DNA of 64,000 nt from Halobacillus mangrovi (GTDB lineage Bacteria; Bacillota; Bacilli; Bacillales; Halobacillaceae). Position 1 is the first letter of the stretch. Every line of letters starts with the position of its first letter. The DNA is taken from positions 310,001-374,000 of the forward strand of contig NZ_CP020772.1 in NCBI RefSeq assembly GCF_002097535.1, written 5' to 3'. The translations under genes and the position numbers were made by a program. Of this stretch, positions 26,099 through 42,237 are shown piece after piece. The notes under the pieces were generated by a model. That model saw nothing but the letters and a program-made list of their open reading frames with translations. It searched no databases and had not been told where the DNA came from.

Positions 26099-26578
26099 AT
26101 GAAAATTACCATCGTCACAGTCGGAAAACTGAAAGAAAAATATTTGAAGCAAGGCATTGCCGAATATGTCAAACGCCTCGGCCCGTATGCGAAGGTTGAT
26201 GTCGTGGAAGTCGCTGATGAAAAAGCACCGGAGAATCTGAGCCAAGCACAAATGGAGGAAGTGAAGGAAAAAGAAGGGGAGCGGATCCTTTCGAAGATTT
26301 CACAGGACAGTTATGTCATCACCTTAGAAATCGAAGGCAAGAAGCTGACTTCAGAAAAGCTCGCCAAAAAGGTGGACGACCTTGCGACATATGGAAAAAG
26401 TAAGGTGGCTTTTGTAATCGGTGGGTCGCTGGGATTAAGTGATAAGGTGTTGGAGCGAAGTAATTTTGGTTTGTCGTTTTCGAATATGACGTTTCCTCAC
26501 CAGTTAATGCGTTTGATGCTGTTGGAGCAAGTATATAGGGCATTTAAGATTATTAGGAACGAGCCTTATCATAAGTAA
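26099..26578 (+). CDS. rlmH: 23S rRNA pseudouridine1915 N3-methyltransferase
   Basis: A 159-residue SPOUT methyltransferase that modifies position 1915 in helix 69 of 23S r[23 protein letters not shown], the knot motif [11 protein letters not shown] and the C-terminal [18 protein letters not shown] are all conserved. The ATG follows ATGGAGGAAACGGATT. In staphylococci the 3' end of this gene is the integration site of SCC elements, and here a second, damaged rlmH 3' part lies 2.5 kb downstream. Confidence 0.96.
26561..26578 (+). other. possible attL-like site in the rlmH 3' end
   Basis: GAGCCTTATCATAAGTAA, the last 18 bases of rlmH, recurs with one change (GAACC...) at 29434-29451. It resembles the SCC attachment core TATCATAA in orfX. 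Coding conservation alone could explain part of the match. Confidence 0.45.
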
Positions 26579-26737: not shown

Positions 26738-28660
26738 ATGATAGTTTACGAAGCTACAAAAAAAGACTTCTGCAACGATGTCTTCCAAGATACTCTCGTT
26801 ACCAATATTGTTACTAACTATAACAACAGAATTGGTCATATTAACCAGAACGAAGTAAGGTCTTGGAATAATTCTATGCAATATATGTACCGTGTCCTTA
26901 TGGATAATGAGATACCTGAAGATGCAGGTATAGCTATCGAATTTCAAATTCCTCATACTTCTAAAAGAGTTGACTTGCTTATCTCCGGCAAGGATGGGGA
27001 AGGTGGCTCTGTCGTTGTTGTGGAATTAAAACAGTGGGAGAAAATTGAAAAAATAGCAGGCAAAGAGGCCATAGTGAAAACAATTATTAATCGAGGGATG
27101 CGAGAAACCACTCACCCTTCTTATCAAGCATGGTCTTATGCTGCCCTTATAAAAGACTACAATGAGAATGCTCAAAAGGAGGATATAAACCTCTACCCTT
27201 GTGCTTATCTACATAATTACAATGCTTTAGGCACTGAAGATCCTTTGACGGATAAAGTTTATGGGTACTATGTTGAAATGGCACCTGTATTTGTTAAAGG
27301 TGGCGCAGCTGATCTACGGTCCTTTATAAAGCGGCATATAAAGTTTGGAGACAATAAAGAAAACTTATATAAAATAGAGAGTGGTCGCATTAGACCCTCA
27401 AAATCGTTACAAGACTCCTTAAATAGCATGCTTAAAGGTAACGAAGAGTTTATCATGATTGATGACCAAAAAGTTATCTACGAAACCGCGTTGCAGCTGG
27501 CTAAGAAAGCAACAAGAACAGGGACTAAACAGGTACTCATCGTACGTGGTGGACCAGGGACTGGGAAGTCAGTTTTAGCTGTAAATCTACTCGTTGAATT
27601 AACGAACCGAAGTCTTGTTACTCAATATGTCACTAAAAATGCAGCGCCTCGAAAGGTATACGCCAATAAGTTAAAGAAAGATTTCCGTAAAGGCCATATC
27701 GATAATTTGTTTAAAGGGTCAGGTAGTTATGTGGATGCTCCTGAAAATGAATTTGATGTACTGATAGTAGATGAAGCTCACCGATTAAATGAAAAGTCAG
27801 GAATGTTCCAACACCTGGGTGAGAACCAAATAAAAGAAATTATAAATGCTTCTAAACTATCTATCTTTTTTATTGATGAGAGACAGAGAGTCACTTTAAA
27901 AGATAAAGGTAATGTTAAGACGATTGAGGAATTTGCCCAAGCAGAGAAGGCAGAGATTACACTAGGGTACTTGGAATCACAGTTTCGGTGTAATGGGTCA
28001 GATGGGTTTCTAGCATGGGTAGATGATGTATTAGAAATTAGACAAACGGCCAATGCTGACTTTATTGATAGTAGTTATGATGTACAGATTTTTTCAGATC
28101 CAAATGAACTGTTTAATACCATTCAAGAATTAAATAAGGGAAATAATAAATCTCGCCTAGTAGCCGGTTACTGTTGGGACTGGATTAAAGAGGGGAAAAA
28201 CCAGTCTGATGTGCACGACATTCAAATTAAAGAGAAGAACTTCGCTAAAAGCTGGAACTTAGGTAATTCTGAAACATGGGCAATAGATGAAGAGTCTGTT
28301 CATGAAGTTGGTTGCATTCACACCTGTCAGGGGTTGGAATTTGACTATGTGGGTGTAATTATTGGTGATGATTTAATCTTTGAAAACGGTCAAATAAAAA
28401 CGGATTATACTCAAAGAGCTAGTACAGATAGTTCCCTTAGAGGAATCAAGAAAATGGCAAAAAGTAACCCACAGAAAGCTGAGCGTGTAGCAGATGAGAT
28501 CATTCGTAATACCTATAGAACTTTACTGACCCGAGGACAGAAAGGTTGTTATATTTATTGCACTAATAAGGATTTGGAAGAATATTTAAAGTATAGAGTA
28601 AATTATTTATCGAAGACTTATAGCAATAAAATTGCAGAAGAAGTAGAAGAATACAAGTAA
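26738..28660 (+). CDS. nuclease-helicase fusion (PD-(D/E)XK plus DUF2075-type ATPase)
   Basis: A 640-residue protein. The N-terminal part has the nuclease-like pattern IEFQIPHTSKRVDLLISG...VVVVELKQW, with Asp79, Glu96 and Lys98 as candidate metal ligands. The ATPase part has Walker A GGPGTGKS (271-278), Walker B VLIVDEAH (341-348), an arginine-bearing LESQFRCNGSDGF and the late IHTCQGLEFDYVGVIIGDD, as in superfamily 1 helicases of the DUF2075/Schlafen-like group. Such proteins are frequent in phage-defence islands. It is alone between the two rlmH 3' ends, with its own terminator. Base composition is AT-rich relative to the pxp genes. Defence function is inferred. Confidence 0.85.
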   Translation: MIVYEATKKDFCNDVFQDTLVTNIVTNYNNRIGHINQNEVRSWNNSMQYMYRVLMDNEIPEDAGIAIEFQIPHTSKRVDLLISGKDGEGGSVVVVELKQWEKIEKIAGKEAIVKTIINRGMRETTHPSYQAWSYAALIKDYNENAQKEDINLYPCAYLHNYNALGTEDPLTDKVYGYYVEMAPVFVKGGAADLRSFIKRHIKFGDNKENLYKIESGRIRPSKSLQDSLNSMLKGNEEFIMIDDQKVIYETALQLAKKATRTGTKQVLIVRGGPGTGKSVLAVNLLVELTNRSLVTQYVTKNAAPRKVYANKLKKDFRKGHIDNLFKGSGSYVDAPENEFDVLIVDEAHRLNEKSGMFQHLGENQIKEIINASKLSIFFIDERQRVTLKDKGNVKTIEEFAQAEKAEITLGYLESQFRCNGSDGFLAWVDDVLEIRQTANADFIDSSYDVQIFSDPNELFNTIQELNKGNNKSRLVAGYCWDWIKEGKNQSDVHDIQIKEKNFAKSWNLGNSETWAIDEESVHEVGCIHTCQGLEFDYVGVIIGDDLIFENGQIKTDYTQRASTDSSLRGIKKMAKSNPQKAERVADEIIRNTYRTLLTRGQKGCYIYCTNKDLEEYLKYRVNYLSKTYSNKIAEEVEEYK

Positions 28661-29067: not shown

Positions 29068-29451
29068 AGTTGATGTAGTCGAAGTCGCTGATGAAAAGCA
29101 CCAGAAAACTTGAGTGAAGCGCAGATCGAGGAAGTGAAGCATAAAGAAGGGGAGCGGATCCTTTCGAAGATATCACAGGACAACTATAAGATTACACTTG
29201 AAATCCAAGGCAAACAGCTGACTTCAGAGGAACTCACGAAAAGGATGGACAAACTTGCGACGTACGGAAAAAGTAAGGTTGCGTTTGTAATTGGAGGGTC
29301 ATTGGGATTATGTGATGGGGTGCTGGAGCGGAGTGATTATGTATTGTCGTTTTCGAATATGACGTTCCCGCACAAGTTGATGCGTTTGATGTTAGTGGAG
29401 CAGGTGTATCGTGCGTTTAAGATTATTAGGAATGAACCTTATCATAAGTAA
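29068..29451 (+). pseudogene. broken second copy of rlmH (3' part)
   Basis: The region matches rlmH from VDVVEVADE to the final NEPYHK at the same strand, diverged by roughly a fifth of bases. A one-base deletion after GATGAAAA brings a stop. A frame from 29110 stays open for 113 codons, still including FVIGGSLGL and the C-terminal knot, but lacks the N-terminal third. It cannot make a normal enzyme. Divergence shows it is another allele, not a fresh duplication, as expected if an element or recombination imported it. Confidence 0.88.
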
Positions 29452-30117: not shown

Positions 30118-31878
30118 ATGAAAAATTTAATAGTTAAAAACTTTTTAAGTCAGTTTAAAAATAACTTTGAGTTAGAAGAAGAACAAGAAGATGTACTGTT
30201 TGAACAGTTTATTAATTATTGCGTCCTTAATAATCATGTAATTGATTCAGAGCGGAATTTTCAGGATATGGATACTGGGACAGCTAAGGCTATTGATGGA
30301 ATAGCTATTCTTGTAAATAATAAACTTGTTCTTAATGAAGAAGACTTAAATGTATTAATAAAAAACAATAATATCCTTTCAGTCGATTTTGTTTTTGTAC
30401 AATCGAAGACTTCGCCAAGCTTTTCAGATGCAGACGTTAATTATTTTTTTAAACATGTTGAACAGTTTATTTGTAATTATGAATGTTCAATAAGTGAGTT
30501 AGAGAAATTTTGGGAGTTGAAAAATATTATATATGAAAATTCCCATTTATTTAGAAAAGGAAATCCGAATTGTATAATGTATTATGCAACATCATCACCA
30601 ACTACTGAAATTAGCTCAGATATAGAGGATACGATTAAATACGGACTGAAATCTTTAAGTGACACAGGTTTATTATCTGATTATATAGACTTTAATCCTC
30701 TTGGTGTTAAAGAGATTCAAAGGTTGTATAGAAAGATTGATGCAGATTTAGAAGCATCTTTCCGCTTTCCCAAAAATGTTTCATTTTCATATGACGGGGA
30801 TAAGATTACGTCCGCATATTTTGGTTTAGTTGATATTAGTGAATACATGCATTTACTTTACGACGATGAAACAGCAGGTGTTAAAAATGTGTTTGAAGAC
30901 AATATACGAGATTACTTAGGTATAGAGAATAATGAAGTAAACAGTAATATGCAGGACAGACTTAAGCATGAAGAGGCTCAACTTTTTGGGATTCTTAATA
31001 ATGGGGTAACTGTAGTGGCAGATGAAATAAAGCCCGTAGGCGAGAAGTTTCACCTAATTAATTATCAAATTGTAAATGGTTGTCAGACCAGTAATGTTAT
31101 ATTTGATAATTATAAAAGCTTAAAGGAAAAAAGTATATCGTTACCAATCCGAATTATTTCTACGAAAGATGAGGAAACCAAGAATGAAATTGTAAGAGCT
31201 ACAAACAGTCAAACTGGATTAAAACCCGAGCAATTAGATTCTCTTAGTAACTTCCACAAAATGTTAGAGGAGTTTTATAACTCAAAAAATAGCTTACATG
31301 AGAAATCAGGTGAGTTTGATGTTTGTGTTTACTATGAGAGAAGATCTAATCAATATAGAAATGAAGCTATCCCACAAACTAAAATAATTAATATCCCTAA
31401 ACAAATAAAAGCTGTTACCTCCATGGTATTAGATAACCCACATGGAGTTTCTGGACATTATGGAACAGTTGCTAAAAAAGTTAAAGGACATATTTTTCAA
31501 GATGGGGACTATGCTGAACCATACTATGCAAGTGCTTTATTGTTATATAGAGTAGAAACCTTTTTTAGAAAAAATAGAGACTATAGACAATTCACAAGGA
31601 TGAGATGGCATATTCTAATGGCTGTAAAATATCTATCAGGCTATAGTCCAAAGTATTTAAATTCTAGGGATAGCTATAAGTTCTCGAATGAAATCGTTAA
31701 GAAAATAAACACAGAGAATAATGCCAACCAATTAATTATAAAAGCCATAAACCATATCAATATAATGATAAATAATGAAAAATTAGATTTAGAAGATAGA
31801 AAGGTTTTCGAAAGAAAAGAAACTACAGATAAGCTGAAAAAGCATCTTAGGGAATTAAATAAAGAGGAAATACATTAG
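30118..31878 (+). CDS. AIPR-family abortive infection protein
   Basis: A 586-residue protein with the AIPR hallmarks FGILNNGVTVVADEI, YQIVNGCQTSNVIFDN and EIVRATNSQTGLKPEQL (about residues 290-375). The N-terminal region has a VFVQSKTSPSFSDADV strand pattern found in these proteins. AIPR proteins are linked to phage resistance and occur with restriction systems; their biochemical action is not settled. The ATG follows GAAAGGCTGAAATC. Strongly AT-rich, in line with acquired DNA. Terminator directly downstream. Confidence 0.85.
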   Translation: MKNLIVKNFLSQFKNNFELEEEQEDVLFEQFINYCVLNNHVIDSERNFQDMDTGTAKAIDGIAILVNNKLVLNEEDLNVLIKNNNILSVDFVFVQSKTSPSFSDADVNYFFKHVEQFICNYECSISELEKFWELKNIIYENSHLFRKGNPNCIMYYATSSPTTEISSDIEDTIKYGLKSLSDTGLLSDYIDFNPLGVKEIQRLYRKIDADLEASFRFPKNVSFSYDGDKITSAYFGLVDISEYMHLLYDDETAGVKNVFEDNIRDYLGIENNEVNSNMQDRLKHEEAQLFGILNNGVTVVADEIKPVGEKFHLINYQIVNGCQTSNVIFDNYKSLKEKSISLPIRIISTKDEETKNEIVRATNSQTGLKPEQLDSLSNFHKMLEEFYNSKNSLHEKSGEFDVCVYYERRSNQYRNEAIPQTKIINIPKQIKAVTSMVLDNPHGVSGHYGTVAKKVKGHIFQDGDYAEPYYASALLLYRVETFFRKNRDYRQFTRMRWHILMAVKYLSGYSPKYLNSRDSYKFSNEIVKKINTENNANQLIIKAINHINIMINNEKLDLEDRKVFERKETTDKLKKHLRELNKEEIH

Positions 31879-32528: not shown

Positions 32529-32655
32529 TTGAATCCCCTCCGCATTTTAGGGTATCGTTAATAATACAATTTAATTATTCTAACATACATGTCGAACAAA
32601 GTTAATCTAAATTTGCTATAATAAGTATAAGCACAAATGTTCGTGAGGTGAAGTG

Positions 32656-33660
32656 ATGTTATATAAATTTATAGACTTATTTGCAGGAATTGGTGGTATT
32701 CGATTAGCCTTCGAAGAATATGGCGAATGCGTTTTCTCATCAGAGTGGGATAATAAAGCTAAAGAAACTTACAAGTTAAATTTTGGTGAGGAACCAGAAG
32801 GGGATATTACAGAGATAGAAGAAAAAAATATACCTGATCATGATATTCTTCTTGCTGGTTTTCCTTGTCAACCATTTTCACTTGCTGGCGTAAGCAAGAA
32901 AAATAGTTTAGGAAAGCAACATGGTTTCTTGGACGAAACACAAGGGACTTTATTTTTTGATATTGCCCGCATTATAAAAGAAAAACAGCCACAGGCTTTT
33001 CTCCTTGAGAATGTAAAAAATCTCAGGAGCCATGACAAAGGTAAGACCTTTAAAATGATTAAAAAGGTTTTAGAGAAAGAGTTAGGGTACTCTGTATACG
33101 ATAGGGTGATTAATGCAAAAGGTTTAGTTCCCCAAAATAGAGAGCGTATATATATTGTAGGCTTTAAGAAGCCCCTTCATTTTGAATTCCCAGTCATACC
33201 GGAGGAGGGCCCCCCCCTATGGACTATCCTAGAGGATAACGTAATTGATAAATACACTTTATCAGATAAACTATGGAACTATCTCCAAGCTTACAAAGAA
33301 AAGCATAGTAAAAAAGGAAATGGATTTGGTTTTGGACTTGCAGATTTAAATTCAAATAGCAGGACATTATCAGCGCGTTATCATAAAGATGGAAGCGAGA
33401 TATTAATACCTCAAGGGGAAGGAAAAAACCCAAGAAGGTTGACACCTAGAGAATGTGCTAGATTACAAGGATTTCCAGAAACGTTTAAAATTGAGGTTAG
33501 TGACACGGCTGCTTATAAACAATTTGGCAATAGTGTTGCTGTTCCTGTAGTTAGGGATATTGCGAAAAACATGATTTATGCTATTGAACAGGATAAACCT
33601 ATTGAAAACGTTGAGGAGGTCAAGGTCGAGCATGCAGGAAGAGTTAGACAACCTAACTAA
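32656..33660 (+). CDS. DNA (cytosine-5) methyltransferase, EcoRII/Dcm-like context
   Basis: 334 residues. Motif I is [14 protein letters not shown] (8-21), motif [13 protein letters not shown] with catalytic Cys71, motif [10 protein letters not shown], motif [15 protein letters not shown] and motif [12 protein letters not shown]; all are intact. It transfers methyl groups to C5 of cytosine in a specific site. An extended -10 (TGCTATAAT at 32614-32622) and GAGGTGA before ATG 32656 support this start. It overlaps a broken EcoRII-type endonuclease gene and faces a Vsr gene. The recognition site may be CCWGG-like, which is inference from those partners. Confidence 0.93.
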
Positions 33661-34297
33661 TGCAATTGAGGCGGCCGGACAGAGTGGTCGCTTTTTTTGT
33701 GAGTTTTTATCTCCAAACGATGCAGGTGTAAATGGAGCCCATCAGGATGGGGTATATTTAAACAGTGGTTCATGGGATATCTTCTTCAATAATGCTTCTG
33801 TTTCTGTATCCGGGATAGAGTAGTAAGAGTGCATATAGACGGTTGGCAACCATTTGATAGTAGGATTATGTATTATACTTCTAAAAAGGAATTCCGTATC
33901 ACCCGTTTTTGGTCAAATGCTCCGTTTAATCGTAGGGAAATGGTAGGGGCGTTAATTCTATTTATACCTTATCGAAAGAAGATTATAAAGTATATATCTA
34001 TCATCTGCATTATATACAATGTAATTATCTGCAATTGATAATGAAAATGTTTGTAAGAACTTCTCTATTTCTTCCTCTGTGTTAAAAGGAGAAAGAGTAC
34101 CAAACAAACATCTTCTAACGTTACAGCAGGGGGTATCCGAAAATCTGTTAGAGGAAATGGAGAATGCCCGGTTGCAGTTAGTTGTTCCAGAACCTTACCA
34201 CAAACAGTATCCAGAAGTATATAGAGATAAATTATGGTCTGTTAGTAAGTTTATTGATTACGCAAATGAAAAATTCTATAGGATTTATCATATATAG
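33632..34297 (+). pseudogene. decayed EcoRII-type restriction endonuclease
   Basis: The frame starts at ATG 33632 behind GAGGAGGTC inside the methyltransferase end. It reads an EcoRII-N domain (GRFFCEFLSPNDAGVNGAHQ), stops at 33823, continues in another frame (MYYTSKKEFRITRFW) and shifts again. It finishes with the EcoRII C-terminal tail (NKHLLTLQQGVSENLLEEM, LQLVVPEPYHKQYPEVYR). About 220 codons remain of an expected 400, so the catalytic core is deleted as well as frameshifted. The methyltransferase is therefore without its cognate nuclease. Confidence 0.82.
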
Positions 34298-34312: not shown

Positions 34313-34723
34313 TTATTTGGCAAGTTCTATAAATTTGGCAATTTTATTCACTGTTCCTTCCAAGTCTTCCTTTATTTCATGCTCCCATATTCGCAAGAGA
34401 TTCCAATCTTTAGCCTCATAATGATTATTCACTTCTTTATCCCGAGCAACATTTCTATTTAATTTCTTCTTCCAGAACTCTGAATTTGTCTGTGGCATAT
34501 TCCCATGTAAGGGACAGCGGTGGAAGAAACAGGAGTCAATAAAAATGACCACTTTATATTTTTTTATTGAGATATCCGGTTTTCCTGTCAGACTTTTAGT
34601 GTTTCTGCGAAAACGATAGCCTTTCTTCCATAATTCACTGCTAACAATCTTTTCAAGTTTGGAAACAGACTTGATTGCTTTCATGTTTTTCCTTCGCTGC
34701 TCTTTACTCATAACATCACCCAT
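34313..34723 (-). CDS. vsr: very short patch repair endonuclease
   Basis: A 136-residue Vsr that nicks at T:G mismatches formed when 5-methylcytosine deaminates. KSVSKLEKIVSSELWKKGYRFRRN, GKPDISIKKYKVVIFIDSCFFHRCPLHGNMPQTN and FWKKKLNRNVARD are diagnostic, including the active-site Asp of IDSCFFH and the zinc-site residues. ATG 34723 follows AGAGGTGAATAAC. It converges on the decayed endonuclease next to the methyltransferase, the usual M-R-V grouping. Confidence 0.94.
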   Translation of the reverse strand: MGDVMSKEQRRKNMKAIKSVSKLEKIVSSELWKKGYRFRRNTKSLTGKPDISIKKYKVVIFIDSCFFHRCPLHGNMPQTNSEFWKKKLNRNVARDKEVNNHYEAKDWNLLRIWEHEIKEDLEGTVNKIAKFIELAK

Positions 34724-34893
34724 GTTATTCACCTCTATTTATATTCTAACTTGTATGCGATACAGATTCATTTCACAACGAGTGTCCTTTGAAAAGTTCA
34801 TGCTATTGAGTTAATAATTTGATAATAACCACCCTATAAAGTAATATAAAAGGATTATTTATAGGAACGAATTAAAGAAAGCGTTAATTAACC

Positions 34894-34928
34894 AAAAAAA
34901 ACTATGCAGCAGAGAATTGCGGCATAGT
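34894..34928 (-). terminator. terminator of the SNF2/GHKL/HNH operon
   Basis: On the minus strand ACTATGC...GCATAGT closes a stem-loop and is followed by a run of T. It lies 7 bases after the HNH stop, separating this operon from vsr. Confidence 0.82.
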
Positions 34929-34934
34929 ACTCAA

Positions 34935-35762
34935 TCATTTATGAACGTTCATTATCTTTTTTAGTTCTTCAATGGAAAGGGGAGGGTCATTTCGATGAAG
35001 CATCGCATGGCAATTGGGGCATACAGGTACCAAATCCGTTGATGGATTGATTACGTAATCAGTATCTATCTTAGAAATAGGTATAATATGATGAACATGG
35101 ATAAATCCTTTTCCAACATTACCATATACTTTCTCAAAATCAAACTCGCACACTTTGCATTTGTAACCGTGTTTCATTATACAAGCCTTTCTATTTAAAG
35201 GGCTACGTTCATACTTGTTTGATTCAATACGGTGTAATTCTCCTTCGGCTCTTCCACTTTGGTCCTCTTTATTAACTTCTAAAGGAAGGAGTGACAATGT
35301 AAGGCTTAATAAGTCTCCTCCTACCTTAATAATCAACTCCTCAAGTTGATTTTGGGTTAGTTCTTCTTGGATTACAGGGATGCGAATTAATTTTAAGGTT
35401 AAGCTATTCCATTCATTTGGCCAGCTACCAGTTTCCAGTGGATCAATATCTATACCGTTGATTTTCATGACTAATTCTGTATTGTCAGAAATAATTGAAA
35501 GGGAGATTGAACTGAACAAAATTTTTTTTTCTTCGTTAGATATTCCCATAGTTTTAATTAAATGTGCTGAGAAGCTATCAGGATTAAATTCTGCAGTGAT
35601 ATTTCGCCAACCTTGACTGACAAGTATGCTAAAGCCTTGTCCGTAAGGGAGGTCTGTAGGTCGAATATAGACCCCATTACTATCTATCTTGCTAGTTACT
35701 CTTATACCAGTACTTTCGACAATTGAATAAGTAATAAAATTAGTATTAATCTGAACCATCAT
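34935..35762 (-). CDS. HNH endonuclease, last gene of the GHKL/SNF2 operon
   Basis: 275 residues. The N-terminal 180 residues have no family I recognise. The C-terminal HNH domain has CKVC (202-205), IHVHHIIPIS with His224 and His225, LVPVCPNCHAMLHR with Cys248, Cys251 and His252, so zinc-site and catalytic histidines are present. It probably cuts DNA once engaged by the upstream ATPases. It starts 17 bases inside the GHKL gene behind CCGGAG, so the two are translationally coupled. Confidence 0.88.
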   Translation of the reverse strand: MMVQINTNFITYSIVESTGIRVTSKIDSNGVYIRPTDLPYGQGFSILVSQGWRNITAEFNPDSFSAHLIKTMGISNEEKKILFSSISLSIISDNTELVMKINGIDIDPLETGSWPNEWNSLTLKLIRIPVIQEELTQNQLEELIIKVGGDLLSLTLSLLPLEVNKEDQSGRAEGELHRIESNKYERSPLNRKACIMKHGYKCKVCEFDFEKVYGNVGKGFIHVHHIIPISKIDTDYVINPSTDLVPVCPNCHAMLHRNDPPLSIEELKKIMNVHK

Positions 35763-37356
35763 TTAACTCCGGATCTGGAAGGTCTTCTACTAATTGTCTT
35801 AATAATCGGCTTGTTTCGTATCTTAATTCTTTTAAATTTCTTTTTGTTACGTCACTAATTGTCCATAGTTCTGCTTGACTACAAGCCCATAAAAGAGAGT
35901 CCATCCCTTGAACTGTGACACCAGATGATAAATTTGGAACGTAAACTTTATGGTAATAAGGGTGGTTGGTATTAATTCTGACTGCAGGGTGCTTATCAAT
36001 TAAGGCCGGTTCCCATAATAGGCCGTCATCTATAGAGTCAACTGGTTGTACAAAAACTTCTCCTTCTCTAGTTGGAGTAACAAGAGGAAGTGTAATTCTA
36101 GTATTGCCATTACTGTTTGTTACCTGTACTTCGTTAGTATCGGGGTTGGTTATTTCGAAAGTAGATCTTTGTAAGTCTTTTTCCCGGCCTTTTATATTTG
36201 AATTGGAGTCTTCATGAGCGCCTTTCGAAGCTTTTGTAACATTCTTTTTTACTCCAGTTCGATAACGATCATTTGCTGCCCTTCTTGGAGCAGGTAGGAA
36301 TTGGTCTTTTATCCAGTTATAAAGATCGTTATTAAGAGAAATCCTTGACTTCTTAATATCCACATTGAAGGCATCATCCATATTATAATCAAAGGAAAAT
36401 TCTACTCTTAATAGTGTGCTGTGTGGTTCATTTCTAACCATCCCCATCCAGTCGCCATGGTGGATAAGGCGATTTTCTCTATAAACATAAAACCCTTGCA
36501 TATCGTTCGAAAGCTTTGCCTGTTTTTGTGCTTCAACGGAGGTGAATTGCTCTTTTCTAGGGAGAACATAGGCCTTAATTGAAAAAGAACTTTCTCTTCC
36601 GTCTTCAAATTTAACAGGTTGAACGCATTCTGCTACTAATTCAGTGTTAGGTTCTGAAATGCAGAAAGGATCCCAAGGTTCAACTATCTCTCCGTTAATT
36701 TTTATATCGATGTTAGTAATGTTTTGATATATAGGATCCAAGTATTGTTGATAAACCATGGCAACATGTTCTCTTAATTTTTCTATTACTTTGTCTAAAG
36801 CTCGTTGTGCATATGTTCCGGTTTGATCTTGATAACTTTTTAATAAACGATCTACTTTTTCCCAAGTAACCACAGTGCCAGATCCCCCATCAGAAACATC
36901 ATCTAATAAATCAACTTCTTCCGGTTCTGGTTCAGGGAATAAAATTTCCCAATCATTAGTTTTAGCTACATGGTCAAGGTCCCAACAGGCCTTCTGAATT
37001 GAAGTAAGCTCATCGTCTCTGGTTGAAACTGATAATCTTCGACAAAATGCCGTTGATGCAGTTTTTAAGCCTAACCCGAACTTTCCAAGACTTTTTGGGG
37101 TGGGCCGTGCTGAAGACCCATACGTCATAGCATTTATTAACCCTTCTTCATCCATGCCACTTCCATTATCACCAATACGAATTATTACATCCCCAGCAAA
37201 GTCCATATTAATTTTAATATCTATTAATGTGGCATTTGCAGCAATAGAATTATCAATTATATCTGCGATAGCTGTGTTAAATTCATAACCTGTGTCTCTT
37301 AGCCCTTCAATCATTCTGGAGGCATGTGGTGGGACTGTTCTTGTTTTGGTACTCAT
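35746..37356 (-). CDS. GHKL (MutL/MORC/Hsp90-like) ATPase of a restriction-like system
   Basis: About 536 residues. The N-terminal Bergerat fold has N-box EFNTAIADIIDNSIAANAT, with Asp where MutL has its general-base Glu, then DNGSG (about 63-67) and GKFGLGLKTAS (about 91-101). An S5-like domain with a conserved lysine region follows, then a unique C-terminal part ending acidic. Such proteins are related to bacterial MutL/MORC homologues predicted in restriction systems (Iyer, Abhiman and Aravind, 2008). ATG 37356 overlaps the EcoRII-N gene stop as ATGA and follows GGAAGG. It likely dimerises on ATP to clamp DNA and control the HNH nuclease; this is inference. Confidence 0.88.
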   Translation of the reverse strand: MSTKTRTVPPHASRMIEGLRDTGYEFNTAIADIIDNSIAANATLIDIKINMDFAGDVIIRIGDNGSGMDEEGLINAMTYGSSARPTPKSLGKFGLGLKTASTAFCRRLSVSTRDDELTSIQKACWDLDHVAKTNDWEILFPEPEPEEVDLLDDVSDGGSGTVVTWEKVDRLLKSYQDQTGTYAQRALDKVIEKLREHVAMVYQQYLDPIYQNITNIDIKINGEIVEPWDPFCISEPNTELVAECVQPVKFEDGRESSFSIKAYVLPRKEQFTSVEAQKQAKLSNDMQGFYVYRENRLIHHGDWMGMVRNEPHSTLLRVEFSFDYNMDDAFNVDIKKSRISLNNDLYNWIKDQFLPAPRRAANDRYRTGVKKNVTKASKGAHEDSNSNIKGREKDLQRSTFEITNPDTNEVQVTNSNGNTRITLPLVTPTREGEVFVQPVDSIDDGLLWEPALIDKHPAVRINTNHPYYHKVYVPNLSSGVTVQGMDSLLWACSQAELWTISDVTKRNLKELRYETSRLLRQLVEDLPDPELNDGSD

Positions 37357-37784
37357 ATTTTCAACACCTTCCATGTATTACCTAATTTAAGTATATTTTC
37401 ACTAAGTTGTTCTAGGTGACGTTCATAGTTTATTAAGTAGTTATCTTCATTAGTTACATTTAAAATAATTGAGTCACCCGCTTTTAAATTATGCTGTTTA
37501 ATAAATCGTGTCATTCCTGTTAGTCTATACTCATTTCTAGTACCACCAAAAAATTGGTTATTATAATAAATAAACATAAAATCCCAGGATTCCCCTGCAG
37601 GGTCAAAGAACTTCAGTTTTACTCTAGGGTTTTTAGTTTCGATACCTAGAGAAGGAAAAAAAGAAAGAATTCCTTCTCTCTTTGGAATTAACATCCCTGC
37701 TTGGTGAGTCCCTGTCTCTCCAGTATCATTTGAACTGAGCAATTTTTTAATTGCCGAAGTATTTTGTGAGTTATCTTGCTTCAT
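37353..37784 (-). CDS. stand-alone EcoRII-N (B3-like) DNA-recognition protein
   Basis: 143 residues. IKKLLSSNDTGETGTHQAGMLIPK (12-35) matches the start of the EcoRII N-terminal effector-binding domain. RNEYRLTGMTRF and KAGDSIILNV continue the B3-like barrel. In EcoRII this domain binds the recognition sequence allosterically. Here no nuclease domain is attached, so it could serve as a sequence-reading subunit for the GHKL/SNF2 complex. AAGGAGG precedes the start, 15 bases after the helicase stop, and its stop overlaps the GHKL start. Confidence 0.85.
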   Translation of the reverse strand: MKQDNSQNTSAIKKLLSSNDTGETGTHQAGMLIPKREGILSFFPSLGIETKNPRVKLKFFDPAGESWDFMFIYYNNQFFGGTRNEYRLTGMTRFIKQHNLKAGDSIILNVTNEDNYLINYERHLEQLSENILKLGNTWKVLKI

Positions 37785-37799
37785 GCCAAATAATCCTCC

Positions 37800-39698
37800 T
37801 TATGAAACAGGTGTTTTGGATAGTGCCTCCAAGATATCTGAATTGTCGAATGAACTCCCGTCTGTTCCAATAACCACAGATTCGGAAAGTTCTCTTTTTT
37901 TCTGAAGCTTTGAATCAATTGCTTCTTCTACGGTGTTACTGCAGAATAATCTGTATATATTGACAGGCCGTTTTTGCCCTTTTCTATATGCTCTTGCAGA
38001 TGCCTGATCCTCAATAGCTGGATTCCATTCTAGGTTGTAGTGTATAACATGATTTGCAGCTGTTATGTTTAAGCCTGCTCCAGCAGCTCTTGGGTTAAGT
38101 ATGAGAAGAGCTGGTCCTTTAACACTACTAAATTTATCAATTATATCCTGTCGTTTTTCAACATCGACTCTTCCATCAATGAAGTCACATGGAATCTCAA
38201 AGCGTTGAGATAAGTCATTAAGGAGTATGTCTGCCATACGGGTAAAAGAAGTAAAGATGATGGCTTTTTCATTGTTAACTACTATTTCTTCTAGTATCTC
38301 AACTAACCTTAAATATTTGCTAAATTGGGCAGGGTCTTGTCTTTCACTAGTACATAATAGTGGGTGTGTGCAATACATTCTTAATCTGATTAACGAAACT
38401 AATGAAGCGCTTCTACCATATTCTTCCTTTGCTTGCTGGCGAATAGTTTCATAATCTTGGGATTCACTGTCAGTTAGTCCAACCATCTGAGGAATATCTA
38501 TTCTTTCTGGAAGATCATCTGCAACGTCTTTAACTTCTCTTCTTAATAAAATGGGTGAAATTATTGGCTCTAAAGACTCAGCGCTGATAACTTCGTTTTG
38601 ATAGGTGCTCTGAAAAGTATGGAGGTCACCTAAGAACCCAGGAAATGCAAAGTCTGCTAAGGACCATAGATCCAATAAATGATTCTCTACCGGTGTGCCA
38701 GTGACAGCTATACTTGTCCTTCTTCTAATTTGTTTAATTGCTTTAGTTCTTTTCGCATGGGGATTCTTAATAGCTTGCGCTTCATCAACAATTACGATAT
38801 TCCAATCTAGCATAAGGAATAAAGAAAAGTCTCTTAGAACTGTTTCATAGGAGGTAATAACAAGATGGTGATTTCGTAAGTGTTTGTAAAAACCAGTTCT
38901 ATTATTACCTTGATGTATAATTGTGTTTAATGAAGGGGCGAATTTTTTTACTTCTCTTCGCCAGTTTTCCAACAGTGTTACTGGAGCTACAACTAATGAT
39001 GGCTTTATGGTGTTTAGGGTTTCAGAAGCCACAAGAGCTATAACTTGGGCTGTTTTCCCTAACCCCATTTCGTCTGCTAAAATACAGCCTACGCTTTCTT
39101 TGGAAATCATTCTCAACCATCGATATCCCTGGAACTGGTAAGGGTATAAAGTGCCCTTAAAAAGTGGTATATTTATTTTGTTATTATCAATAATAGAACC
39201 TTTATTTAAGGTTAATTTGCTTACTTCATCTTGAATAATTGGTTCCTGAGTTCTTCTTAAAGTAAGATATTGTTGAAAGGATATATTGCCTATTCGACTA
39301 ACTCCCGATTTTTCTAATAAGGACCTTATCTCGGTCATAGATCCTTGAACAATTGGGTACCATGTTTGGTTAATAATTATGTGATCGCAATCTTTTTCAA
39401 AATTCTCTTTTAGATTATATTCAATTGAGTTAACTTTACATATTACTTCGAGTAATAGACTTATATTGCCTTTTTGGGATATAGGTTTTATTCTAAGGTT
39501 TATTTTCAAAGGGAATCTTGAAAAGTTTAACTCTTTTAATTCGTCAGAGGGCTTTTTAACTAAAAGCCCTCTGACTTTTAGTTGGTTTTTAAACTGAGCT
39601 AAAAAAACCTCTTTCGCAGTAGGTAATATAAAATCATTTTTTGAGGAGTTAATGCCAAGCATATTGTTATGTACCATAAACCAGCTACCCTTTTGCAT
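37800..39698 (-). CDS. SNF2-family helicase/translocase
   Basis: About 632 residues, first gene of the operon. The N-terminal 180 residues are unassigned. Motif I DEMGLGKTAQ (about 209), motif II VDEAQ (about 305), motif III TGTPVEN, and the C-terminal lobe with FTSFTRMADIL, ILNPRAAGAGLNITAANHVIHYN and QASARAYRKGQ are complete. It should translocate on double-stranded DNA. ATG 39698 follows GAGGTG by 6 bases; the GTG at 39707 overlaps that site. With the EcoRII-N, GHKL and HNH genes it forms a compact operon. Confidence 0.92.
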   Translation of the reverse strand: MQKGSWFMVHNNMLGINSSKNDFILPTAKEVFLAQFKNQLKVRGLLVKKPSDELKELNFSRFPLKINLRIKPISQKGNISLLLEVICKVNSIEYNLKENFEKDCDHIIINQTWYPIVQGSMTEIRSLLEKSGVSRIGNISFQQYLTLRRTQEPIIQDEVSKLTLNKGSIIDNNKINIPLFKGTLYPYQFQGYRWLRMISKESVGCILADEMGLGKTAQVIALVASETLNTIKPSLVVAPVTLLENWRREVKKFAPSLNTIIHQGNNRTGFYKHLRNHHLVITSYETVLRDFSLFLMLDWNIVIVDEAQAIKNPHAKRTKAIKQIRRRTSIAVTGTPVENHLLDLWSLADFAFPGFLGDLHTFQSTYQNEVISAESLEPIISPILLRREVKDVADDLPERIDIPQMVGLTDSESQDYETIRQQAKEEYGRSASLVSLIRLRMYCTHPLLCTSERQDPAQFSKYLRLVEILEEIVVNNEKAIIFTSFTRMADILLNDLSQRFEIPCDFIDGRVDVEKRQDIIDKFSSVKGPALLILNPRAAGAGLNITAANHVIHYNLEWNPAIEDQASARAYRKGQKRPVNIYRLFCSNTVEEAIDSKLQKKRELSESVVIGTDGSSFDNSDILEALSKTPVS

Positions 39699-39943
39699 AA
39701 AATTCACCTCTTCTTTAGCCCCGTAAACTTTATAAATAATTAAAAATAACTAATTTCTGTATAGAGTAATTATTCATCTGGTCGTTACCTTACTAAATAT
39801 CAATACCATTATAACAAGACAAAAGGGACAGATTCCAAGAAAATTATTTCAAAATTCATAATTAAAGTTATATTCCGTTTTTCAGTTGTAGTCGAAGTGT
39901 ATACTCTAAATAATAAATTTAGTTCTATGAGAGGGAGAGGCAA

Positions 39944-41125
39944 GTGGATTTTTCTAAATTAATTATAGATAAAAAATACAGGAATACAAATAATTGGAAG
40001 CTACCGCAAGATGAATTTAATAAAATCTTTAAAAGGTTTAGAGATGGGAAAGGTATTCAAAATGTTCAAGGATTTAGGTGGAAAAGTAAATACGCTGGCC
40101 CAACAAACATTCACGGTGCTGCCTTTATTGTTATAGTTACAAATTTTAACGAAAAGGAATGGCCTGATGAATTAGATTACGAGACTGGTATATTTACATA
40201 TTTTGGAGATAATCGCAAGGGAGGGGATGTTTTACATTCTACTCCTGGTAATGGATACTTAAAAAATACATTTGATTTAATTCATTTGTATAAGAATCGA
40301 TTCGACATTGCCCCAATACTACTTTTCCAGAGTGTTAAAGAGAATAAGCATTACATGAAGTTTTTAGGTTTATTAGCACCCGGAGCTGCAGATTTTCGTC
40401 CAACTGAAGATTTAATAGCAGTTTGGCGTGTTGAGAAAGAGAATCGATACCAAAATTATAGGTCAATTTTCACTATTTTAAAAGAAGAAGAGATAGATTT
40501 AAAATGGCTAGATGATTTGTGCCAAGGAGTTAAGCCTGCTTCATCAATATATTGTCCTGAAGCATGGAGGTTATGGGTTGATAAAAATGTCTATACACCT
40601 CTGGAGTGCGAATCTACTAATCATATTAGAACTATGAAAGAGCAAACTCCAAATTCTGAAGAGCAAAAAATAATAAATTATATATTAAATCTTACTGATA
40701 GGGAATTTGAGTTCGCAGCCAAAGAAATATTAAAGCTAACGGATCCACATTTATATGACTTGAAAGTAACTAGACGTGTAAAGGATAAAGGGATTGATAT
40801 AATTGGGAAATATAAAATTGGTCATAAAAAGTATAGTTACTCTTTACGGGCTATAGGGGAGGCTAAGCGTTGGAAAAAAAGCGTTAATAGCAGAGAGTTT
40901 TTAAGGTTGATATCAAGAATGACTAAAGATACTATTGGTTTTTTTGTAACAACTTCATATTTTGGTGAAGCCCCTCAAGAAGAAATTATTGAAGATGATA
41001 GACCAATAATATTGATATGCGGAAAAGATATTGCAAACATTTTAATAGATAAAAATCTAGCTGGAAAAGGGTACGAAATAGAGTTTAAAGAGTGGTTGGA
41101 AAAAATAAAAACAGAAGCAAAATAA
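39944..41125 (+). CDS. modification-dependent restriction endonuclease, Mrr-type catalytic domain (AspBHI/MspJI-like)
   Basis: 393 residues. The N-terminal half (GPTNIHGAAFIVIVTNF, TGIFTYFGDNRKGGDVLHST) resembles the SRA-like domain of AspBHI, a 5-methylcytosine-dependent enzyme of the same length. The C-terminal Mrr-type nuclease has Asp285 in VKDKGIDIIG and Glu306, Lys308 in GEAKRW. GTG 39944 follows GGGAGAGG. The exact modified site is unknown. It sits divergent from the SNF2 operon and near an intact C5-methyltransferase, so its specificity must avoid that mark or be controlled. Confidence 0.8.
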   Translation: MDFSKLIIDKKYRNTNNWKLPQDEFNKIFKRFRDGKGIQNVQGFRWKSKYAGPTNIHGAAFIVIVTNFNEKEWPDELDYETGIFTYFGDNRKGGDVLHSTPGNGYLKNTFDLIHLYKNRFDIAPILLFQSVKENKHYMKFLGLLAPGAADFRPTEDLIAVWRVEKENRYQNYRSIFTILKEEEIDLKWLDDLCQGVKPASSIYCPEAWRLWVDKNVYTPLECESTNHIRTMKEQTPNSEEQKIINYILNLTDREFEFAAKEILKLTDPHLYDLKVTRRVKDKGIDIIGKYKIGHKKYSYSLRAIGEAKRWKKSVNSREFLRLISRMTKDTIGFFVTTSYFGEAPQEEIIEDDRPIILICGKDIANILIDKNLAGKGYEIEFKEWLEKIKTEAK

Positions 41126-41364: not shown

Positions 41365-42237
41365 TTAAACAATATTTTTAATTCTATTCTTTTTATAAAG
41401 TTTCCTCAACATCTCATAAATAATTCTCTTATTATAGCTTGCAGATAGATTGATCCTCGCTAAAATATAAATATATCTAATTATTGAAGGAATACTTTTA
41501 AGTTTATAATATTCTGATTTAAGAATTAACAGGTGATTAGCAGTATTTGCTAACCGCTTTTCTAAAATCTTTAATGTTGCTGGGTGAGTTAAGTCAATGT
41601 TTTCAGGAAAATAGTTCACTAATAATTCTCCATGAAATTCAACATTATTTTCTTTTATTGTAAAGCCGAAGTCCTGAATATCTTTCTCAAAGTTTTTTTT
41701 TAATAATTCAATTTTCTCATGGTTTTTCTGTTTTTCTTTTTCGTGAAGTTTGTACTTTTCATATCTTTGATGGTTTATACGGTATTTTACTATTTCAGCT
41801 TTAATATACTTAGCATCAATTAATTTAGCCCATATGGATCGATGATTACCATCTGAGCCAACGTAGTATTCATCAAAATCTTCATAATAATATAACTGCA
41901 TCATTGGAAAATTCTTATCTACAAACCATTTTTCAAATTCCACTAAAGTGGTTTCTTCCAATTTTTCCTGTAAACCTCTGAATTTATGTGGGTCTATATT
42001 GCCAGCTTTCATATTTGCGTGATCCCACCACGAGTAATTCTCTTTCCCTCTAGAAAAAGTTAACCCCTTAATTTTATTCACTGGAACCAAGACTTCTGCA
42101 TCGTAATGTGGGTCATAATCAAAAAAAGACCTATAGACCTTATCACTCTTCACTTTTTCATTTGAAAGGTCTAGTATATGCTCTTGTTTAACACCTTTTC
42201 TTAAGAGTAGTTCTTCAAGCGCATTTATTTCAATCAC
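41365..42237 (-). CDS. ParB/Srx-fold-like protein of unknown function
   Basis: 290 residues. The middle part YEDFDEYYVGSDGNHRSIWAKLIDAKYIKAEIVKYR resembles the nucleotide-binding DGNHR box of ParB/sulfiredoxin-fold proteins found in DNA-modification and mobile loci. A lysine-rich helical part (about 155-200) and a basic C-terminus follow. The start is uncertain: GTG at 42237 touches AGGAG, leaving too little spacing. AT-rich like its neighbours. It may belong to the defence island, but no partner gene is adjacent. Confidence 0.6.
   Translation of the reverse strand: MIEINALEELLLRKGVKQEHILDLSNEKVKSDKVYRSFFDYDPHYDAEVLVPVNKIKGLTFSRGKENYSWWDHANMKAGNIDPHKFRGLQEKLEETTLVEFEKWFVDKNFPMMQLYYYEDFDEYYVGSDGNHRSIWAKLIDAKYIKAEIVKYRINHQRYEKYKLHEKEKQKNHEKIELLKKNFEKDIQDFGFTIKENNVEFHGELLVNYFPENIDLTHPATLKILEKRLANTANHLLILKSEYYKLKSIPSIIRYIYILARINLSASYNKRIIYEMLRKLYKKNRIKNIV

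Follow-up and report, generated by a model that had tools for sequence, protein, structure and literature searches.

A MORC ATPase operon in Halobacillus mangrovi as a likely restriction-modification system directed against unmethylated CCWGG

Results

Architecture of the locus

We analyzed a 64,000-nucleotide stretch of the Halobacillus mangrovi genome (assembly GCF_002097535.1, contig NZ_CP020772.1, positions 310,001 to 374,000 of the forward strand), hereafter the window, which carries four intact open reading frames (ORFs) on its minus strand, encoding a SNF2-family ATPase, a stand-alone EcoRII-N/B3 domain, a prokaryotic MORC ATPase of the GHKL type, and an HNH nuclease (Table 1). A first-pass annotation, made from the letters alone, had described these genes as one tightly packed operon with a terminator, and the re-analysis confirmed it: 15 nt separate the SNF2 and reader genes, the reader and GHKL genes overlap by 4 nt, and the GHKL and HNH genes overlap by 17 nt (with starts at 39698 for SNF2 and 37356 for GHKL). 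The annotation stopped at four genes, leaving out an intact Dcm-type methyltransferase gene, an intact Vsr gene, and an EcoRII pseudogene next to them. We propose that the locus likely encodes a multi-subunit, ATP-dependent restriction-modification system attacking unmethylated CCWGG.

The SNF2 gene starts with ATG, an alternative GTG at 39707 being possible, and no nuclease domain was found in its product. The longest ORF of the GHKL/MORC gene begins at 37374; the start giving the 4-nt overlap was used here. The stem of the operon terminator, read from the sequence, comprises 7 bp (34901-34907 paired with 34922-34928); our inverted-repeat scan accepted loops of at most 8 nt, and the terminator has no entry in the scan list. 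A perfect 14-bp inverted repeat also lies within the 5' part of the SNF2 gene (39543-39575), and the 251-nt mRNA segment around it folds better than 200 of 200 shuffled sequences (z = -2.98).

Table 1. Features of the operon and its predicted partners in the window.
Feature	Position	Strand	Evidence
Dcm-type C5 methyltransferase, 335 aa, predicted cognate writer	32653..33660	+	PF00145 E 2.6e-96
EcoRII restriction endonuclease gene remnant (pseudogene), between Dcm and Vsr	33644..34273	+	tblastn
Vsr mismatch endonuclease, 139 aa, expected repair partner of a CCWGG methylase	34313..34732	-	TIGR00632 E 9.2e-39, above cut-off
Intrinsic terminator of the operon, 3' of HNH	34894..34928	-	stem ACTATGC/GCATAGT and eight T on the minus strand
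HNH nuclease, 275 aa: N-terminal ~160 aa without domain match, C-terminal HNH with zinc cysteines	34935..35762	-	PF01844 E 2e-6
Prokaryotic MORC ATPase, GHKL type, 536 aa	35746..37356	-	PF13589 (HATPase_c_3) E 2.5e-28
Stand-alone EcoRII-N/B3 domain, 143 aa, predicted CCWGG reader	37353..37784	-	PF09217 E 4.7e-17, B3 E 1.6e-7
SNF2-family ATPase, 632 aa, predicted DNA translocase	37800..39698	-	PF00176 E 9.5e-59, PF00271 E 1e-20

Conservation of the gene set

With the GHKL protein as query, 5078 of 8000 scored proteins qualified as homologues (E ≤ 1e-3); the listed 120, including the window's own, are 55–100% identical to it. Scanning 84,980 species genomes confirmed 465 GHKL relatives, and we analyzed the best 80 of these loci with up to 10 kb on each side, calling ORFs and searching them with profiles grown from the window genes. 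Many of the 80 contigs are short, and a well-flanked set of 40, each with 8 kb or more to either side, was used alongside. The best 80 loci contain SNF2 in 77, EcoRII-N in 60, a second reader family termed X (see below) in 16, HNH in 76, Dcm in 68, Vsr in 43, and an AIPR protein in 4 cases. The corresponding numbers among the 40 well-flanked loci are SNF2 40, reader 40, HNH 39, Dcm 39, Vsr 26, and AIPR 3.

SNF2, reader, MORC, HNH, and Dcm are complete in 38 of the 40 well-flanked loci. The first-pass annotation had named the operon a candidate DNA-targeting defence system, a claim that rare co-occurrence of the genes would have refuted; this high recurrence supports a coherent, conserved DNA-targeting operon over a chance cluster. 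The order SNF2-reader-MORC-HNH is found in 31 of these loci, reader-SNF2-MORC-HNH in 8 (X type), and SNF2-reader-MORC without HNH in one. In 39/40 the four genes thus share a strand and follow one of two orders, and the intergenic gap stays within 50 nt at 115 of the 119 junctions. A further order, MORC-HNH-SNF2-reader, occurs in three loci outside the 40 (L053, L054, and L065) and in two plasmids. Dcm is found on either side of the operon and on either strand (upstream on the plus strand 18, downstream plus 12, downstream minus 6, upstream minus 3), with 13 changes of arrangement along the tree of the cores from 38 loci; the methylase is retained without being fixed to a position in the operon.

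The loci span 11 phylum labels, including one archaeon. Among 101 genomes of the same genus, family, and order, a full-length GHKL match was found in the window's genome only, the others aligning over at most about 220 residues, and the window's own protein alone passes E 1e-100 in a phylum sample of 398 genomes. The distribution is rare and patchy, as expected of a mobile defence locus. In the plasmid set, ten records had a match covering 80% of MORC; all eight that were fetched, four of them Rhizobiaceae kin, carry the four genes together with Dcm and Vsr, and all eight Dcms bear the recognition motif described below. The MORC gene of one plasmid (L168) is split across two frames.

The system is accordingly larger than the four genes initially proposed: the conserved operon stands, as a probable restriction-modification system with Dcm and often Vsr and not as a four-gene stand-alone. 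Three neighbouring genes were considered as further members and rejected, namely AIPR (4 of the 80 genome loci), an AspBHI-like gene (1 of 103 loci searched), and the gene at 41365-42237 (0 of 103). The sole AspBHI-like match, L117, is a viral locus with a distant GHKL gene along with Dcm, Vsr, and AIPR. As an observation apart, the Eggerthellaceae locus L106 (8082-14091) contains SNF2, two full-length MORC genes with HNH in between, and a different kind of Dcm, possibly representing a third reader type or a heterodimeric MORC.

The methylase and the predicted target

The window Dcm is the single PF00145 protein found in its genome. Its recognition region, which includes KGNGFGFGL, resembles that of Dcm from E. 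coli K-12. Counting Dcms of at least 290 residues, we found the recognition motif in 49/49 Dcms of EcoRII-N loci outside four loci with two divergent tandem Dcms, in none of the eight Dcms of those four, and in 14/14 Dcms of X loci. It is present in one of two Dcms from loci without a found reader and in none of five from viral loci with distant GHKL genes. For comparison, only 6 of 29 high-scoring PF00145 loci of relatives (picked by score, own gene excluded) have it; the difference from the 49/49 of EcoRII-N loci gives a Fisher p of 1.4e-14, computed on rows that are not independent.

Three diagnostic columns separate the methylases by reader class. EcoRII-N-class Dcms carry Y and L..Y, as does E. 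coli Dcm (CCWGG), and X-class Dcms carry G and H..R, the same letters as the pKPN2 methylase and M.SpyI (CCNGG). With references counted, the EcoRII-N class shows Y in 45/50, L in 50/50, and Y in 44/50, and the X class G, H, and R in 15/15. The partner enzyme of the pKPN2 methylase is Ecl18kI by sequence (PDB 2fqz, E 3.6e-203), and all 14 usable Dcms of X loci are nearer to the Ecl18kI-type methylase. Ecl18kI recognizes CCNGG and EcoRII CCWGG (PMC6344858). The window Dcm has all three EcoRII-N-class letters. CCWGG is not avoided in the window (98 sites vs 82 expected), which fits a methylated host. Methylase and reader both suggest CCWGG, which is probably the target in this strain.

An exchangeable reader

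The window reader matches EcoRII (3hqf, E 6.4e-10) and shares its NDTG.TG.HQ and TRNE.R loops. The NDxGxTGxHQ and TRNExR loops are near-invariant in 63 stand-alone EcoRII-N readers, the window's included; their conservation was tested here, and their role as contact residues of EcoRII-N is general background. Across 84 loci (80 genomic and 4 viral), the reader is EcoRII-N in 64, X in 16, both in none, and neither in 4, three of which (L048, L056, and L060) come from contigs that are short or cut. X had no Pfam match above cut-off and no PADLOC match among the members scanned, and a comparison with PDB sequences gave nothing below E 0.08. It has 439 homologues, and the 120 listed are all without a Pfam label. 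The reader is exchangeable: X replaces EcoRII-N, and the Dcm then has a CCNGG-type recognition region. Since the X-class Dcms form one clade and the X-class cores likewise (FastTree), the reader switch occurred once in the sample. No full-length X locus was found among further plasmids, and viral contigs yielded one further locus.

A presumed third reader family, "Y", was rejected because it is X with an additional N-terminal domain. A His takes the place of Arg83 in the reader loop at L059, L064, L077, and L090, and these are precisely the four loci whose Dcms are two in number, tandem, and divergent. The recognition regions of these Dcms are only 5–20% identical to those of M1/M2.LlaJI, and GACGC, the LlaJI-like site, was rejected as their target. 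In four X loci we also observed a gene following Vsr (L073, 14023-15033; L075, 8761-9771; L079, 13905-15011; L087, 7164-7473). This gene, which in L073 matches PF13020 (NOV_C) and PDC-S36, is a candidate extra nuclease of the X class.

The X domain extends beyond MORC operons. In the viral contig L164, X is fused to a McrB-like AAA+ domain, a nuclease of the LlaJI family (PF09563) comes next, and the preceding methylase has a recognition region 67% identical to that of the pKPN2 methylase and 42% to that of E. coli Dcm. A search with the L164 X domain returned 10 proteins including L164 itself, 7 of them labelled AAA_5. The domain also leads to Streptococcus phage phi1207.3 (tblastn E 6e-13), whose SpyI R1 begins with X (93.8 bits, three sequences searched). 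The recognition region encoded by spyIM shares 80% and 67% identity with its counterparts in the two X-class loci examined, and 47% with that of E. coli Dcm; M.SpyI is reported to mark CmCNGG (Euler et al., 2007, as cited in a passage of PMC6597129). In H. pylori LlaJI, a B3 reader is described at the place of X (passage of PMC7680126); lactococcal LlaJI R1 matched neither the EcoRII-N nor the X profile. With B3 in H. pylori LlaJI and X in SpyI and L164, B3/EcoRII-N and X therefore both appear as readers in two unrelated engines. These comparisons suggest that X, tied to CCNGG through SpyI, is a previously undescribed DNA-reading domain common to two restriction engines.

MORC ATPase and HNH nuclease

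The MORC signature GhXhhpXXRhl of the S5 domain (Iyer et al., 2008) appears in the window as GFYVYRENRLI from residue 294 (counted from the 37374 start), and 84 of the 85 sequences inspected carry the motif. PF13589 is matched over its full length, and the Gly boxes are invariant in 21/21 sequences. When a family profile of 21 relatives was compared with solved structures, human MORC2 (E 3.7e-10) came ahead of MutL (E 3.3e-6), with alignment confined to the N-terminal ~100 residues. The biochemistry of bacterial MORCs was called poorly understood in 2021 (passage of PMC8011034).

In the HNH protein, C202, C205, H224, H225, C248, N250, C251, H252, and H256 are invariant across an alignment of 53 of the 77 available sequences, and the HNH half matches McrA (6ghc, E 1.4e-9). 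A PDB sequence search matched this half only and returned nothing for the N-terminus. The HNH protein probably cuts the target DNA.

A classical EcoRII beside the module

The pseudogene between Dcm and Vsr was identified by tblastn with five EcoRII relatives. It matches residues 4-128 (in two frames) and 340-402 of the 402-residue protein of L031, with a frame break and the middle missing; the best pieces have E 8e-15 to 4e-11 in a 1.4-kb target. Two of the five relatives matched the remnant only partly, and 29 control pieces of the window gave no EcoRII match at 1e-3. The fragment is also the sole PF09019 match in the source genome. Dcm, Vsr, and the MORC module have stayed open beside it; a simple reading, drawn from one genome, is that Dcm is still needed because of the MORC module.

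An EcoRII-C gene was found in 17 of the 64 loci with EcoRII-N and in none of the 16 with X (13/32 and 0/8 when well-flanked), as well as by Dcm/Vsr in 6 of the 8 plasmids (200 aa in L168, about 405 aa in the rest). Counted among the 17 is the locus of Metabacillus niabensis, a close relative of the window (L028, 5302-7473), with a single 723-aa ORF combining Dcm with an EcoRII-C match (E 8e-24), which is either a methylase-nuclease fusion or a run-together ORF.

Neighbouring genes

The surroundings of the operon contain additional defence-related genes. An intact AspBHI-like modification-dependent restriction endonuclease gene (39944-41125; PF18062 E 2.6e-46 and Mrr_cat) lies near the CCWGG methylase. 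The AspBHI site is YS-5mC-NS (5mC, 5-methylcytosine), and if this specificity is kept, the enzyme would attack the host's own mark. An AIPR protein is encoded at 30118-31878 on the plus strand (PADLOC AbiU model, E 5.8e-117). At least the last 179 nt of rlmH (26400-26578) are repeated with 84% identity at 29273-29451, 2.9 kb downstream, and the two copies flank a Schlafen-type helicase gene (26738-28660), which looks like an SCC-like insertion at the rlmH site adjacent to the island.

Discussion

Proposed mechanism

In the sequences we observe the parts of the system, their conservation as a unit, the matching of reader and methylase types, and the remains of EcoRII. A linked cognate methylase, as expected of a restriction-modification system, is present: Dcm accompanies the operon in 39 of the 40 well-flanked loci, and its type matches that of the reader. 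In the proposed mechanism, Dcm would methylate the CCWGG sites of the host, with Vsr repairing the T:G mismatches arising from 5-methylcytosine. The stand-alone EcoRII-N protein would bind unmethylated CCWGG on incoming DNA and recruit the SNF2 motor and the MORC ATPase, starting SNF2 movement by analogy with CglI/NgoAVII. Motor and MORC would load on DNA and move along or clamp it, MORC clamping or looping DNA as proposed in the passages of Iyer et al. (2008; PMC2292703), and the HNH protein would then cut, presumably to the benefit of phage defence.

The first-pass annotation had the EcoRII-N protein reading a sequence or its methylation. It does look like a sequence reader, but methylation should block and not attract it, because the methylase is nearly always present.

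Several observations weigh against this interpretation. Reader type changes once on both trees, and the match of reader and writer thus rests on few events; SpyI and L164 represent a second chassis, yet they are kin via the X domain. No Dcm lies within reach in L057, no HNH gene is detectable in L030, and no reader is recognized in L106. As for the target, by overall identity E. coli Dcm (53%) is more distant from the recognition region of the window Dcm than either M.SpyI (63%) or the methylase of pKPN2 (59%). The CCWGG assignment of the window Dcm is favoured by the three diagnostic columns only, two of which admit exceptions (Y in 45/50 and in 44/50). Among the 49 EcoRII-N-class rows, 5 tilt to CCNGG-type methylases, with 43 tilting the opposite way and 1 tied. 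Finally, the N-box Glu of human MORC2 is Asp in the window and in 82 of 85 sequences (a regular expression did not catch the other 3), which qualifies the earlier description of all catalytic motifs as intact. From work on gyrase, Asp at this position reduces the ATPase activity but need not abolish it.

Alternative explanations

An unlikely alternative is silencing of the MORC type, in which the reader would mark unmethylated CCWGG, and SNF2 and MORC would entrap and compact foreign DNA to block transcription or replication, leaving HNH a secondary or fail-safe role. The rank of eukaryotic MORC2 as first among solved structures fits this idea, as does L030, where the set persists although no HNH gene can be detected. 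For C. elegans MORC-1, entrapment and condensation of DNA are reported (PMC8277788). The HNH gene is nevertheless retained in 39/40 well-flanked loci, with catalytic and zinc residues invariant in the 53 aligned sequences.

The combination of a MutL-like ATPase, Vsr, SNF2, and a CCWGG reader could instead constitute a very-short-patch repair machine mending deaminated 5-methylcytosine at Dcm sites. Vsr is near the operon in 26/40 loci, and in E. coli, very short patch repair uses Vsr as its nuclease together with MutL (passage of PMC2292703). However, 14 of the 40 loci have the operon but show no Vsr, and Dcm is present in at least 13 of those; the reader changes along with the methylase as in restriction-modification systems; X is also the N-terminus of a SpyI restriction subunit; and the distribution is patchy, with the window's own genome alone among the 398 of the phylum sample (E ≤ 1e-100). 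We regard such a repair machine as quite improbable.

Even less probable is a type IV-like system that attacks methylated CCWGG and is merely parked by Dcm. The HNH half resembles the methyl-dependent McrA, and a modification-dependent AspBHI-like gene is next door, but the Dcm found in 39/40 loci would turn the host itself into the target. EcoRII-N, moreover, belongs to an enzyme, EcoRII, whose host is protected by the same CCWGG methylation. That four unrelated defence genes were gathered by chance is refuted, despite surroundings that form a defence island (AIPR, AspBHI-like, Schlafen-type helicase), by their shared strand, one of two orders in 39/40, and short gaps at 115/119 junctions.

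Beyond the restriction-modification system proposed here, we tentatively consider a broader and rather doubtful picture, in which MORC operons would be a restriction chassis with plug-in readers: EcoRII-N for CCWGG, X for CCNGG, and a third, re-tuned EcoRII-N with the Arg-to-His change and two divergent methylases. MORC might then be a methylation-gated clamp trapping and compacting unmarked DNA before the HNH cut, ancestral to eukaryotic MORC silencing. Prokaryotic MORCs were proposed in 2008 as forerunners of the eukaryotic MORC silencing ATPases. A predicted target word together with a predicted protective mark gives a handle on how bacterial MORCs work. Both can be switched in an E. coli K-12 host by the presence or absence of dcm, which turns the question into a plaque assay.

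Comparison with known systems

The gene set itself was foreseen by Iyer, Abhiman & Aravind (2008; PMC2292703), whose prediction included a B3-type protein, a methylase, and Vsr. The passages on SNF2-type MORC operons describe MORC, SWI2/SNF2, and HNH, some with VP1/RAV (B3), a cytosine methylase, and Vsr; the window has all six, with the MORC motif. The first-pass annotation considered the detached EcoRII-N protein the most distinctive part; VP1/RAV, the same B3-type domain, was already noted in 2008 in these operons. Those passages give no target sequence, reader exchange, or test, and the target, the second reader family, and the pseudogene argument are added here. We found no tested or named system with this exact set in the open-licence literature searched (most subscription papers lie outside it), PADLOC 2023, or NCBIfam 2026, in agreement with the earlier annotation, and the set is absent from the passages of three recent papers (PMC12137116, PMC13092281, and PMC12839542).

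Among defence systems with related ATPases, Mza shares the GHKL/MutL-like superfamily (PADLOC MzaB, E 7.9e-52, residues 9-359), but the NCBIfam MzaB score of 205.8 is far below the curated cut-off of 850, and no other Mza component was among the PADLOC matches listed for the nine proteins scanned. With DISARM and Zorya, the likeness is one of relatives, Dcm matching the DrmMII model and SNF2 the ZorD and DrmD models; DrmA/B/C and ZorA/B were not among the PADLOC matches listed for the nine proteins (the best 25 of 62 for Dcm and the best 25 of 41 for SNF2), and the locus was assigned to neither.

The classical type IIE enzyme EcoRII shares the EcoRII-N reader, CCWGG, a Dcm-type methylase, and a Vsr neighbour, and its EcoRII-C gene is intact or decayed at some of our loci. 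The window reader is, however, a separate protein of 143 residues, and EcoRII has nothing corresponding to the motor, MORC, or HNH. The locus is not of type IIE, since its reader has EcoRII-N only and EcoRII-C occurs in the genome merely as a fragment. The McrBC-like SpyI and LlaJI systems share an engine driven by nucleoside triphosphates, an exchangeable N-terminal reader, and a 5mC methylase, but their engine is an AAA+ McrB-like protein with a LlaJI-family nuclease and not SNF2-MORC-HNH. A parallel to the proposed mechanism is offered by CglI and NgoAVII, for which experiments have shown site finding by B3, ATP hydrolysis by an SF2 ATPase, cutting by a separate nuclease domain, and protection by a 5mC methylase (PMC4267653). 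Compared with these systems and the 2008 prediction of the gene set, what is new here is the target prediction, the exchangeable reader with the new domain X, the link between X and SpyI, and the wreck of EcoRII beside an intact MORC module.

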